Positions 4,991 to 47,602 of a stretch of 64,000 nt of DNA are shown piece by piece. This stretch comes from Gelidibacter salicanalis. Lineage in GTDB: Bacteria > Bacteroidota > Bacteroidia > Flavobacteriales > Flavobacteriaceae. Within the stretch, counting starts at the first letter, position 1. Every line of letters starts with the position of its first letter. The notes under the pieces are model-generated. The model was not told the DNA's origin. It worked only from the letters and a program-made list of their open reading frames with translations, and made no database searches. The translations under genes were made by a program, and so were the position numbers. The DNA lies in NCBI RefSeq assembly GCF_007997285.1, contig NZ_VORX01000005.1, forward strand, positions 124,001 through 188,000. Direction: 5' to 3'.

Positions 4991-6949
4991 ATGAAAAAAC
5001 TATTACTACTACTTACTTTTCTAACAGGTAACTTTATTTTCGCGCAAGTCGGTATTGGTACGGATGTACCCAATGCTTCCTCACAATTAGAAATTAAATC
5101 TTCTAACAGAGGGGTTTTGATACCACAAATAGCATTAAAAGGGACTACAGATCAAGAGACTATTACAGCAGGTAACGTCGAAAGTTTACTGTTGTATAAC
5201 ACGACTAGCACTAACGGAATGACTCCAGGTTATTATTATTGGAGTCAAGACAGCTGGAAAAAATTATCAACTGGTATTGATGTGCCAGATAACATTGTGT
5301 ATTATGATGTTGTAAATAATCAATTTACACGTATTGATCAAGATGGAGATGTTATCATCATTGGAGATCCAAATCTTCAAACACTGACATTCTTACGTCT
5401 TAATGCCGACGGGTTTACTTTAGAGTATTCTGATGAAGATGAAAATCTATCAAAAATAGATTTAAAAGCTGTTGTTCAGAATTTCCAAAGTATCACGTCG
5501 CTTGTCGCTAATACCGATGGGACTGTTACATTTACTAATGAGAATAAGGAGACGGTAACTATCGATTTACCTAAAGGTTTACAAGGACCCCAAGGTATTC
5601 CAGGCGTTGCAGGTCCAAAAGGAGATAAAGGTGACCAAGGTGTTGCAGGTCCAGTAGGTCCATTAGGTCCAATTGGAGCTACGGGAACTTCAGGTCCAAA
5701 AGGAGATAAAGGTGACCAAGGTGTTGCAGGTCCAGTAGGTCCTGTAGGTCCTCAGGGTATTCAAGGTCCAGTAGGTCCTAAAGGAGCTGACGGTGCTAGT
5801 ACTGGTATTGCCGGTCCTAAAGGTGACAAGGGAGATCCAGGTGTTGCAGGTCCAGCAGGTGCTACAGGTCCAGCTGGAGTCCAAGGTCCTGTCGGTCCAA
5901 TGGGTCCTGTAGGTCCTAAAGGCGCAGATGGCTCTAGCACTGGAATTGCCGGTCCTAAAGGAGACAAGGGAGATCCAGGTGTTGCAGGCCCAGCAGGTCC
6001 TTCTGGTATTCAAGGTCCAAAAGGAGATATAGGTGCTATAGGTCCAGAAGGTCCATCTGGTATTCAAGGTCCAAAAGGAGATATAGGGGCTTTAGGTCCA
6101 GTAGGTCCATCTGGTATTCAAGGGCCAACAGGAGAACAAGGTTTAGAAGGAGTTCCAGGTGTTGCGGGTGCAGTAGGTCCAGCCGGTCCAGCGGGTCCAA
6201 AAGGTGATACCGGTTTAACCGGTCCTGAAGGTATTGAAGGTCGTCAGGGTCCACAAGGTGCGACAGGTCCAATTGGTCCAACAGGTCCGGATGGAGCAAG
6301 AGGTGAAAAAGGTGAACGTGGTTTAAAAGGTGATGAAGGTGCTAAAGGTGATACAGGTTTAACAGGTCCAGCTGGTGCAGTTGGTCAACCAGGTAAACAA
6401 GGTCCAATAGGTTCAGTGGGACCTCAAGGTCCAAAAGGTGATCAAGGTGTACCAGGTCCAATAGGTCCAGTGGGACCTCAGGGTGTAAAAGGTGATCAAG
6501 GTGTACCAGGTCCAATAGGTCCCGTGGGACCTCAAGGTGTAAAAGGTGATACAGGCGTTGCAGGTCCACAAGGTCCAGTAGGTCCAGCAGGTCCTAAAGG
6601 AGATAAAGGTGACAAGGGAGATACAGGGTTTTCTGCTCCAGCATATTTATATTTGCCACCAGTTACTGTGTATACTGATCAAAGCCAGGTGCCATCAGGG
6701 CAAACGCTTGGTTCTGTAGATGTTTACGCTATCTACCAAAAGCAAGGTGCTCCAATGGTTAAAAATCCGGGTTCTACTACTACAATTCCTGTAGTTCCGA
6801 GCAACCAATTAGATTATTTCATTACATGGTATGATACAGCTAAATTTTCAAACGTTAGTATTAGCAATAGTGGTATTTTAACCTATACTGTTATTGGTAA
6901 TGGAGGTAATCTATCGTCTTATATGACTGTAGTCGTTGCTAAAAAATAG
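4991..6949 (+). CDS. Exported collagen-like (Gly-X-Y repeat) protein
   Basis: The 652-residue product has a clear signal peptide ([19 protein letters not shown]), so the ATG at 4991 is preferred to one 13 codons upstream. Residues 20-195 start with [16 protein letters not shown], a pattern of Bacteroidota surface and fibre proteins. Residues 196-545 are about 116 uninterrupted Gly-X-Y triplets, rich in GPKGDKGD and GPVGP, broken only twice by an extra Thr (GAST/GSST). A 105-residue beta-rich C-terminal domain follows. This should form a triple-helical stalk on the cell surface. I see no canonical type IX C-terminal sorting domain, although the next three genes are of that system. Near-identical DNA blocks show the repeat grew by duplication. 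Confidence 0.85.
5576..6625 (+). repeat. Gly-X-Y coding repeat tract
   Basis: About 1,050 bases of 9- to 54-base tandem units encode the collagen-like stalk. Examples of near-identical blocks are the segments starting near 6006 and 6060 (same 33 bases, coding [11 protein letters not shown]) and those near 6438 and 6492 (54-base period, coding [16 protein letters not shown]). Such a tract can change length by slippage or recombination. Antisense open frames here are artefacts of the repeat. Confidence 0.9.
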
Positions 6950-34933: not shown

Positions 34934-35812
34934 ATGAGTAATCCGCAGCATTTCAGATATTCAACAGGCGTTGTGGGCTACCCCATCTTTTTTTTGATGT
35001 TAATCTGGGTCGTCTTCTGGTTGCAGGTCCGATTTTTCCCCGTCATCAAAACCTGGGGAATAGTACCAGAAACTTTAGTAGGATTACGGGGGGTGGTTTT
35101 AAGTCCGTTCATTCACGCCAACATTGAGCATATTTATCACAATAGTATTCCGTTAGTAGTCCTATCAATGGCCTTGTTTTATTTCTACAGGCCCATTGCT
35201 TGGAAAGTGTTGGTTTATGGTATATTACTTTCCGGAATGATCACGTGGTTTATCGGGAGACCTTCCAATCATATTGGCGCTAGTGGCCTTATTTATGTCC
35301 TAGTCAGTTTTATTTTTTTTAAGGGCATATTTGCCAAACATTTTCGGTTAGTAGCTCTTTCGCTATTGATTATTTTTCTTTACGGAAGTATGATTTGGTA
35401 TGTGTTCCCGATCAAGGATGGGGTGTCGTGGGAAGGGCATTTAGGGGGACTTATTACTGGGTTTGTCTTTGCCGTAATTTTTAGAAAGGCCATTGCCAAA
35501 CCTGATCGTTACGTGTGGCAGGAACAAGCATACAACGAAGATGATGATCCGTTTTTGAGACATTTTGATGAAAACGGGAATTTTATAGAAAATTTAGAAC
35601 CGGAAATTGAACTTGAATTTGAACTTGAAAATGAAGTTGAAGTTGAAAGTGAAAGTGAAATTGAATTTGAAAGTGAAATTGAAGATGAAAGTGAAATTGT
35701 AGATGAAAATGAAATAAAGGCGAAAGATACCACTGAAACCCCAATTGCAAATCGGTCGAACTTAAATCCATCGAAGATCCACTATATTAATAAGGAAACT
35801 CCTAAGTCATGA
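34934..35812 (+). CDS. Rhomboid-family intramembrane serine protease with acidic tail
   Basis: The 292-residue protein has six or so membrane segments, the catalytic serine motif GASG (Ser117), the catalytic His in EGHLGGLITG (His169) and the HANIEHIYHN loop (oxyanion region). It cleaves membrane proteins within the bilayer. After residue 220 a cytoplasmic tail of about 40 residues is almost only Glu alternating with other residues, coded by a 6-base repeat (35602-35712). The tail is not part of the rhomboid fold and may vary in length. Confidence 0.88.
   Translation: MSNPQHFRYSTGVVGYPIFFLMLIWVVFWLQVRFFPVIKTWGIVPETLVGLRGVVLSPFIHANIEHIYHNSIPLVVLSMALFYFYRPIAWKVLVYGILLSGMITWFIGRPSNHIGASGLIYVLVSFIFFKGIFAKHFRLVALSLLIIFLYGSMIWYVFPIKDGVSWEGHLGGLITGFVFAVIFRKAIAKPDRYVWQEQAYNEDDDPFLRHFDENGNFIENLEPEIELEFELENEVEVESESEIEFESEIEDESEIVDENEIKAKDTTETPIANRSNLNPSKIHYINKETPKS
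35602..35712 (+). repeat. Hexamer coding repeat (GAANNT) in rhomboid tail
   Basis: About eighteen consecutive 6-base units of the form GAA-NNT code the Glu-x tail. As a multiple of three, length change by slippage would keep the frame. Confidence 0.8.
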
Positions 35813-35819
35813 TGATTTT

Positions 35820-35843
35820 GTCACACTGAGCGCAGTCGAAGTG
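35820..35843. repeat. Interspersed repeat with dyad ends
   Basis: The 24 bases have the ends CACT and AGTG around GAGCGCAGTCGA. A near-identical motif (TGAGCGCAGTCGAAG) is one I recall as a frequent intergenic repeat of Bacteroidota. Only one copy is in this window. Confidence 0.45.
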
Positions 35844-35884
35844 CTTTTTAAAATCAAATAGGTGAGGGGCTAGGTTCTAGTTAG

Positions 35885-36282
35885 CAGTGTGCAGTCTTCA
35901 GTTGGCAGTCTGAATGTTGGCAATCTACAGTCTTCAGTTGGCAGTCTTCAGTTTTCAGGCTTCAGTTGGCAGTCTTCAGTTTTCAGCTGACAGTCCTCAG
36001 TCCTCAGTTTTCAGCTGGCAGTCTGCAGTCATCAATCTACATTCGTCAATTCACAATTTCATTTTTAGAATCTCGAATCCTCCCGTATCGAGAAGTGATG
36101 TATGGGTGGGTCAACAATCAACAATCAACAATCAACAATCCGCAATCCGCAATCCGCAATCTCCAATCTTCAACTTGCCCGTACCGAAAAGACACGTTCG
36201 GGCGGGTCAACAATCTTCAATCCACAATCTCCAATCTTCAACCCGCCCGTACCGAAAAGGTACGTTCGGGCGGGTCTCCAAT
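35885..36282. repeat. Composite array of 7-bp repeats and three 31-bp hairpins
   Basis: From 35885 to 36060 there are 25 units of 7 bases in phase (consensus CAGTCTT/CAGTTGG, later CAATCTA), with one 8-base unit. Then come three copies of a 31-base hairpin (36081-36111, 36177-36207, 36245-36275; the last two read GCCCGTACCGAAAAG at the 5' side and CGTTCGGGCGGGT at the 3' side) separated by 9 and 5 more heptads (CAACAAT, CCGCAAT, CTTCAAT), each run being 7n+2 bases. One heptad after the last hairpin, the rlmB stop codon begins. Open frames in all three plus-strand phases arise because the units contain no stop. Confidence 0.9.
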
Positions 36283-37017
36283 CTAAAGTCGTTGTCGCAC
36301 TACTTCGTATAGGAACGCACCACATGCTACTGAAACATTTAACGATTCAATATCTCCTAAGATTGGAAGTTTTGCCTTTTCATCTACAACTTTTAGGATG
36401 GAGGGATTGATGCCTTTTCCTTCTGAGCCCATAATGATGGCACAAGGTTCAATAAAGGAAACATCATAAAGGTTTTTGTCAGTTTTCTCTGTAGCAGCAA
36501 TAACTTTTATTCCAGAAGCCTGCATGTAAAATACCGCATCCTTAATATGGTCTACTTTACATATTGGAATTTTAAAAATGGCACCGGCGCTCGTTTTAAT
36601 GGTATCACCATTAACTGGGGCACCACCCTTTTTCTGAATAATAATTCCAGAAACTCCAGTACATTCTGCAGTTCTTATAATTGCGCCAAAATTACGCACA
36701 TCACTCAATTGGTCTAGGAGCAGGAATAGGGGTGTTTTGCCAGATTCGAGGACATTGGCTACCAATTCTTCAATAGGGTAGAAACTAATGGGGGCAATTT
36801 GCGCCACAACGCCTTGATGGTTCTTATTGGTTAGACGATTCAGTTTTTCAACTGGCACGTAAGAAGAATTCAAACGCTCTTTATGTAGCAATTGTTCAAG
36901 TTCTGTAAAAAGTTCCCCGCGAAGACCTTTTTGCAAAAATATCTTATCGATGTTTTCGCCAGATTTGATTGCTTCAATCACTGCTCTGATTCCAAAAATT
37001 GTAGTTTCGTGTTCCAT
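36283..37017 (-). CDS. rlmB: 23S rRNA (guanosine-2'-O)-methyltransferase, SpoU family
   Basis: The 244-residue enzyme has an N-terminal L30e-like RNA-binding part (TTIFGIRAVIEAIKSGENID) and a C-terminal knotted SpoU domain with LLDQLSDVRNFGAIIRTAE, IIMGSEGKGI and LNVSVACGAFLYEVVRQ, which binds SAM. It should methylate G2251 of 23S rRNA. The ATG at 37017 is preferred over one 31 codons upstream, because MEHETTIFG matches the family and a TACCTTTG promoter box ends 4 bases before it. Its stop touches a heptamer array. Confidence 0.93.
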   Translation of the reverse strand: MEHETTIFGIRAVIEAIKSGENIDKIFLQKGLRGELFTELEQLLHKERLNSSYVPVEKLNRLTNKNHQGVVAQIAPISFYPIEELVANVLESGKTPLFLLLDQLSDVRNFGAIIRTAECTGVSGIIIQKKGGAPVNGDTIKTSAGAIFKIPICKVDHIKDAVFYMQASGIKVIAATEKTDKNLYDVSFIEPCAIIMGSEGKGINPSILKVVDEKAKLPILGDIESLNVSVACGAFLYEVVRQRL

Positions 37018-37109: not shown

Positions 37110-37146
37110 TAAAAAAACCTCTTAAGTATTAGACTTAAGAGGTTTT
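37110..37146 (-). terminator. Terminator of the susCD unit
   Basis: AAAACCTCTTAAGT (37114-37127) pairs perfectly with ACTTAAGAGGTTTT (37133-37146); on the minus strand a run of T follows. It lies 22 bases past the susD-like stop codon. Confidence 0.85.
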
Positions 37147-47440: not shown

Positions 47441-47602
47441 TGTGGTAGAGACGCATAATCATGCGTCTCCACAAATGGCATTGATGCAAAATTTTGCGTC
47501 TCCACAAATGGCATTGATGCAAAATTTTGCGTCTCCACAAATCGCATAGACGCAAAATTTTACGTCTGTACAAACAATCAGAAACACATAATTATGTGTC
47601 TC
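47441..47602. repeat. Ladder of five palindromes with 33-bp period
   Basis: Palindromes lie at 47448-47469, 47483-47500, 47516-47533, 47549-47566 and 47581-47602, with centres 33, 33, 33 and 34 bases apart. Units 2-4 are GATGCAAAATTTTGCGTC or close; the first reads GAGACGCAT-AATC-ATGCGTCTC and the last GAAACACAT-AATT-ATGTGTCTC. Spacers of 13-15 bases are also alike (TCCACAAATGGCATT). It is too short and too symmetric for CRISPR. Confidence 0.9.

Follow-up and report, generated by a model that had tools for sequence, protein, structure and literature searches.

The intergenic region between a rhomboid gene and rlmB of the marine bacterium Gelidibacter salicanalis carries about 41 heptads of the form CARTYNN together with three hairpins (positions 35885-36285 of the window, that is, of the whole 64,000-nucleotide stretch of DNA analysed here). 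We consider it likely that this array is a heptanucleotide simple sequence repeat which arose by slippage, and that the hairpin, a thing apart from it, is a mobile element of REP-like type. The arguments come from the register of the array, the junctions of the hairpins, the distribution of both elements in other genomes and the comparison of orthologous sites within the genus.

Architecture of the array

The features of the region and of its two neighbouring genes are collected in Table 1. The initial annotation had described about forty phased heptads with three embedded hairpins, a unit core shifting from CAGT to CAAT and a 7-base phase kept with one exception. All of this was borne out at the positions described: the units are of the CAGT type at the start of the array and of the CAAT type at its end, and the phase list contains a single slip, of +1, between 35906 and 35921. 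The last unit had been rightly placed at the rlmB stop, except that it contains the complement of the stop codon instead of touching it.

Table 1. Coordinates of the array, its components and the flanking genes (positions in the window)
Feature	Position	Strand	Basis and remarks
Rhomboid-family gene	34934..35812	+	ORF and Pfam PF01694 (E 3.7e-14); upstream convergent neighbour of the array
Four CAGT heptads	35885..35912	+	Phase list; one base off the register of the remaining units
CAGTYNN to CAATYNN heptads	35921..36077	+	Phase list and frame test; degenerate towards the end
Hairpin 1, 33 bp, diverged copy	36078..36110	+	By-eye alignment to hairpins 2 and 3; removal of 33 bp restores the heptad frame
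CAAT heptads, 63 bases	36111..36173	+	Phase list and frame test; nine units, counted across junctions
Hairpin 2, 33 bp	36174..36206	+	Inserted at CAA^TC; folding, frame test, junctions
CAAT heptads, 35 bases	36207..36241	+	Phase list and frame test; five units, counted across junctions
Hairpin 3, 33 bp	36242..36274	+	Inserted at CAA^TC; folding, frame test, junctions
End of array	36275..36285	+	The complement of the rlmB stop lies within the last unit, CAATCTA (36279-36285)
rlmB-like SpoU-family 2'-O-methyltransferase gene	36283..37017	-	ORF; Pfam PF00588 (E 4.6e-37) and PF08032 (E 7.4e-19); the ORF listing starts from an upstream ATG at 37110

The hairpin (CCCGCCCGTACCGAAAAGGYACGTTCGGGCGGG) is GC-rich and measures 33 bp, and not 31 bp as had been annotated. 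Indeed, when three hairpins of 33 bp are removed, 33 of the 37 consecutive heptads from position 35921 begin with CAA or CAG in one frame, whereas removal of any other length (28-32 or 34-39) leaves only 19-23 of the 37 in one frame. With these borders the hairpins are separated by 63 and 35 bases, which are exact multiples of seven (9x7 and 5x7), as expected if they had entered, or had been copied within, a pre-existing array. The spacing of 7n+2 that had been reported arose because the hairpins were taken as 31 bp. For hairpin 1, folding alone gives weak support (z -0.66).

Adjacent units of the window resemble each other above chance (4.92 matches of 7, against 4.26 after shuffling; none of 2000 shuffles reached 4.92), and their likeness is highest at separations 1 and 2. 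This pattern of likeness and the kept register are what local duplication of units predicts. Three frames of 132, 106 and 102 aa are open across the array, which probably codes for no protein.

Several other repeats were noticed in the window. A REP-like palindrome (GTCACACTGAGCGCAGTCGAAGTG) lies directly ahead of the array, at about 35819-35843; the related locus L143 also has one copy, and L144 has three that are related to it. GAAATT-type repeats of 6 and 18 bases (35603-35715) were seen in the acidic tail of the rhomboid gene; their length varies across species, and L146 and L147 have a GC-rich insert at this place. Collagen-like repeats of 54 to 138 bases, together with a 33-base repeat, were found at 5609-6611 and 47462-47574. 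A comparison with Rfam gave no match above the gathering score, and its two sub-threshold matches both lie outside the array.

Distribution and insertion sites of the hairpin

The 15-base core of the hairpin is present in 14 copies in the G. salicanalis genome at no more than one mismatch (control 0), and it was found in all nine genomes of the genus (9/9). A search of other genomes for the hairpin, which the initial annotation had proposed, was positive: with a pattern of 20 fixed bases, it was recovered from 46 stretches of other records belonging to Bacteroidota, counting one Chlorobiota MAG. The hosts are Gelidibacter, Leeuwenhoekiella, Maribacter, Arenibacter, Psychroflexus, Gillisia, Bizionia, Mesonia and Cerina, to which are added several Bacteroidetes MAGs and the Chlorobiota MAG. 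Positions left free in the search pattern are nevertheless conserved (A at position 21 in 89/92 copies and G at position 19 in 86/92), while position 20 varies.

In other genera the hairpin also lies outside heptads, and outside the genus it is often located inside 5' fragments of tRNA-Ala or tRNA-Leu genes. At all nine loci with an intact tRNA gene nearby (9/9), the tRNA fragment runs on across the 33-bp hairpin with neither gap nor duplication, the match at L113 being short and weak. These nine belong to the ten loci at which ARAGORN found a tRNA, of 16 given, and the tenth, L116, was omitted as its hairpin is not in the tRNA. By eye, L105, L130 and L173 look tRNA-like as well; the stretches of L105 and L130 contain no intact tRNA. 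Elsewhere in the same tRNA fragment, L097 and L173 carry a second inserted hairpin (CCCGCCTGAACGAATTCATTCGGGCAGG, with one variant), two kinds of hairpin occurring together.

Within the Gelidibacter group, 45 of the 58 copies are inserted at AA^TC (15/17 in the G. salicanalis genome and 30/41 at the other loci of the genus), compared with only 2 of the 34 copies in other genera. This preference may reflect either a choice of target or spread by exchange between arrays. Hairpin and CAAT lie on the same strand in the copies inspected. An automatic phase test, in which eight copies were evaluable and 69 were not, placed six in phase and two (L038 and L040) out by 3; in our reading by eye these two are in phase, the script having picked a second CAAC register.

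Among the ORFs common to the 46 hairpin loci, the most frequent is a GIY-YIG-like ORF, present at seven loci (L095, L096, L097, L109, L113, L131 and L137), with the domain confirmed at L095. It sits between the hairpin-bearing 5' fragment of the tRNA gene and the intact tRNA gene (full reading for L095), an arrangement that is possibly that of a tRNA-targeting homing element.

Candidate movers of the hairpin

The size, the palindrome, the extragenic position and the multiple copies of the hairpin would fit a classical REP whose mobility depends on a resident RAYT (Y1) transposase. Moreover, the Y1 subclass 2.6 of Bacteroidetes is said, in the parts of PMC6006769 consulted, to have flanking atypical structures, and some Y1_Tnp match exists in 9 of the 15 hairpin-bearing genomes, with one match in the G. 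salicanalis genome. However, the six other genomes have none, and the hairpin was absent from all Y1 loci (0/31), even with up to 4 substitutions allowed. The borders of the hairpin, both dinucleotides and flanks, carry neither of the tags, GTAG and CGTC, by which the two large REP super-families are marked according to the excerpt of PMC3733652. No RAYT transposase was found near the hairpin, and the ORFs of the Y1 locus of G. salicanalis gave no match at 1e-3 when searched among the 46 hairpin loci. We therefore regard a classical REP with its resident transposase as rather unlikely and retain a REP-like element in the wider sense.

Heptads in the genome and in the Flavobacteriales

The search for heptads in other genomes, also suggested initially, was equally productive, a four-unit heptad pattern being present in 67 of 296 Flavobacteriales genomes. 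The G. salicanalis genome (3.78 Mb) has the highest count of all, with 137 matches against 8 for the reversed control, the next genome having 101. The reversed control matches many Flavobacteriales genomes too, at times above the true pattern, and these matches are taken to be other heptad arrays.

Thirty-four stretches of the G. salicanalis genome around heptad matches or hairpins contain arrays of CAGT and CAAT units, many of them free of hairpins, as well as other units of period 7 (CAACTTC, CAACACC, TGTTCTT, TTCACTT, CTTCACA and AAGTATT). In 464 kb of this genome, made up of 20 stretches picked irrespective of repeats and the window, the tandem repeats outside ORFs have periods of 7 (4 cases), 14 (7), 21 (2) and 28 (1), none has a period of 5, 6 or 8, and each remaining period was seen once or twice. 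The repeats of period 7, 14, 21 and 28 occur in unrelated sequences. Period spectra of four further Flavobacteriales genomes cover little sequence (100 kb each): G156 gave lag 7 in two windows of the scan and lags 14 and 21 in one each, and three shuffles of it as a control gave lag 7 once; G038 and G171 gave none, and G299 gave lags 6 and 16 once each.

No orientation bias towards neighbouring genes was found among 32 arrays outside ORFs (13 ++, 13 --, 3 +-, 2 -+ and 1 undetermined). In this count the genes are ORF-based, three arrays inside ORFs were omitted, one array has no left neighbour, and the scan rules for arrays differ slightly from those used in reading the 34 stretches. In L063, L065 and L088, CAGT arrays form facing inverted pairs, which are potential long hairpins.

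Turnover at orthologous sites

The site downstream of rlmB was compared in the nine genomes of the genus, one genome per species. The genus is taken as Gelidibacter, since the named Gelidibacter records L100, L120 and L126 closely resemble loci of the genome analysed here. It holds three hairpins in G. salicanalis, two in L143 and one in L144. In L145 it consists of about twenty TAGCATC units, in L146 of plain CAAT units, in L147 of CAAT mixed with TAATCGT and in L148 of TAATCCC, and the array is nearly absent from L149 and L150. Four more sites (S67, S81, S86 and S85, named after the G. salicanalis loci L067, L081, L086 and L085) show a like turnover of units and of hairpin number. Altogether, 22 of the 43 orthologous segments are periodic, and 21 of these 22 have their best lag at 7 or 14; the five sites were picked for their arrays or hairpins in G. 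salicanalis, and shared ancestry can preserve a period. The exception, with a lag of 3, is L259, where there is a long T run, and only 1 of 860 shuffled segments was periodic at all. The test omitted L285, whose start is not aligned, and S85 is represented in eight of the nine genomes, G008 having no clear orthologue. Between species, the 7-base period thus stays, while the sequence of the unit and the number of hairpins turn over.

Misassembly often results from tandem repeats, and an assembly error was the concern raised at the outset. The worry is reduced because in the close relatives L143 and L144 the corresponding site also has such hairpins within heptads, two and one respectively; one frame is also kept throughout the array. 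An error of assembly is accordingly extremely improbable.

At S81 and S86, G. salicanalis shares the hairpin with its two nearest relatives; some copies are therefore old and could be under selection. At S67, the G. salicanalis genome is free of hairpins and L260 and L264 contain apparent decayed relatives of the 33-bp hairpin, so that its absence in G. salicanalis may be a loss and not an empty site. Two further kinds of palindrome were observed at orthologous sites. In L275, upstream of a start codon, a CAGT heptad array is broken up by a GC-rich hairpin of another kind, and the palindrome ATTCCTGCGAAGGCAGGAATC or variants of it are found in L291, L293, L294 and L281, in several genomes of the genus.

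Two functional explanations can be weighed against these data. As the array is located between two convergent stops and its stems are stable (-15.5 and -15.7 kcal/mol), it might act as a transcription terminator or as a stabiliser of mRNA ends between the rhomboid and rlmB genes. This role is very improbable: no site combining a stem and a T run was found in 35700-36400, the hairpin lies shortly ahead of a start codon wherever it is present at S67, S81, S85 and S86, and the array is almost missing from two relatives, as described above.

The other explanation, a composite regulatory module in which the heptads would be bound by a protein along DNA or RNA and the hairpins would belong to the same device, develops the proposal of the initial annotation that hairpin and heptads behave as one unit. 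Hairpins and heptads do often adjoin in the genus, the hairpin is kept in three species at some sites, and both have been amplified together: a hairpin plus one heptad forms tandems of 40 or 41 bp in the G. salicanalis locus L078 and in Gelidibacter gilvus (L101), the five copies of L078 being spaced by 40, 40, 40 and 47 bases (33 + 7 or 33 + 14). Hairpin and heptad can thus be copied together; a joint function is not required. The many hairpin-free arrays of the genome and the hairpins outside heptads in other genera speak against such a module, as do the complete replacement of the unit at the same site (TAGCATC in L145) and the lack of orientation bias. The fixed spacing from which the module had been deduced would follow from 33-bp insertions into the array and from slippage by whole units. 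We consequently hold a composite module to be improbable. More generally, the absence of orientation bias and of a terminator-like site, the replacement of units and the near absence of the array in two relatives speak against a required function.

Proposed mechanism

Slippage in the heptads and mobility of the hairpin, which remain our preferred reading, could be combined as follows. The 7-base unit would have been multiplied by replication slippage or unequal exchange in a nearly neutral sequence. Local duplications would homogenise adjacent units, the sequence drifting from CAGT to CAAT with the 7-base register kept. The 33-bp hairpin would have been inserted into the array at CAA^TC with no duplication of the target, and its extra copies may derive from fresh insertions or exchange among arrays. 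Subsequent slippage would have shifted whole units, so that every hairpin stays 7n from the next. The mover would most likely be a single-strand REP-type process, acting in trans or since lost.

We also put forward, tentatively and as a view that we hold to be possible but still somewhat doubtful, that the hairpin is a mobile element of its own: having no gene, tag or target duplication and being nearly invariant across Bacteroidota, it would insert in single-stranded or structured DNA, namely tRNA arms (at at least three positions and in both orientations) and slipping heptad arrays used as landing pads, as a bacterial counterpart of the mobile hairpins of mitochondria.

A text search of the open-licence literature found no description of the 33-bp hairpin, although one may exist in print, and no prior description of its precise insertion into heptads and tRNA fragments was found in the literature searched. 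Because the heptads keep a 7-base register, the array is an internal ruler by which insertions can be sized to a single base: the hairpin adds exactly 33 bp, with no duplication. The series of nine species separates the period, which is kept, from the sequence, which is replaced, a distinction relevant to the question of why bacterial intergenic repeats favour units of seven bases. It would also be worth tracing a hairpin that is conserved between Flavobacteriaceae and distant records of the Bacteroidota and has no evident transposase.

Comparison with known systems

The STRR (short tandemly repeated heptamers) of cyanobacteria are heptamer arrays, a likeness noted here by name. In the excerpts of the papers on which the rest of this comparison draws, heptamers are reported to be the most frequent type of long simple repeat in the majority of bacterial genomes, and slippage is proposed as their cause (Mrazek and colleagues 2007, cited in PMC4679880 and PMC4692102), and GGGNATC heptanucleotide repeats are described in Xanthomonas and Nostoc (PMC4692102). 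The present array shares with these repeats a 7-base intergenic unit, degenerate units, length variation between relatives and inverted pairs of arrays (PMC4692102, PMC4679880). Like a simple sequence repeat, it has a tandem 7-base period, and both the number and the sequence of its units vary among close relatives. It differs by its CARTYNN unit, by the occurrence of several unrelated heptamers per genome or site and by the interrupting hairpins.

The TAACTGA repeats are known from Beggiatoaceae, Cyanobacteria and five Bacteroidetes, in arrays of up to 43 copies (MacGregor 2015, PMC4679880), and long arrays with other heptamers alongside occur in Gramella and Aequorivita (PMC4679880). Their shifted complement reads CAGTTAT, which fits CARTYNN; however, the CAGTTAT/TAACTGA unit is absent from the array units listed here. 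These repeats lie mostly just before start codons and in forward orientation (PMC4679880), whereas our 32 arrays show no such preference, and the consulted part of that paper reports no hairpin element with them.

Regarding the hairpin, its 33 bp fall within the 20-40 bp of REP palindromes, and it resembles them in being extragenic and present in several copies, some in tandem (PMC3733652, PMC6006769). Unlike REPs, it has no GTAG or CGTC tag and no RAYT nearby, and its copy number is low for a REP. Mitochondrial hairpins, namely the GC clusters of yeast (PMC4478555) and the repetitive hairpin elements of sponges (PMC2800124), are likewise short, gene-less, intergenic and present or absent between relatives. 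The yeast GC clusters are flanked by a target duplication of AG or ACT (PMC4478555), whereas the hairpin described here shows none at the tRNA junctions (9/9). These elements belong to other genomes, and we claim no common origin with the bacterial hairpin. By analogy, the hairpin may behave as REPs or the GC clusters of mitochondria do, although two defining features of REPs are lacking. The heptad array, for its part, belongs to an already known kind of repeat, of which it is a good example, and bears a mobile hairpin within it.
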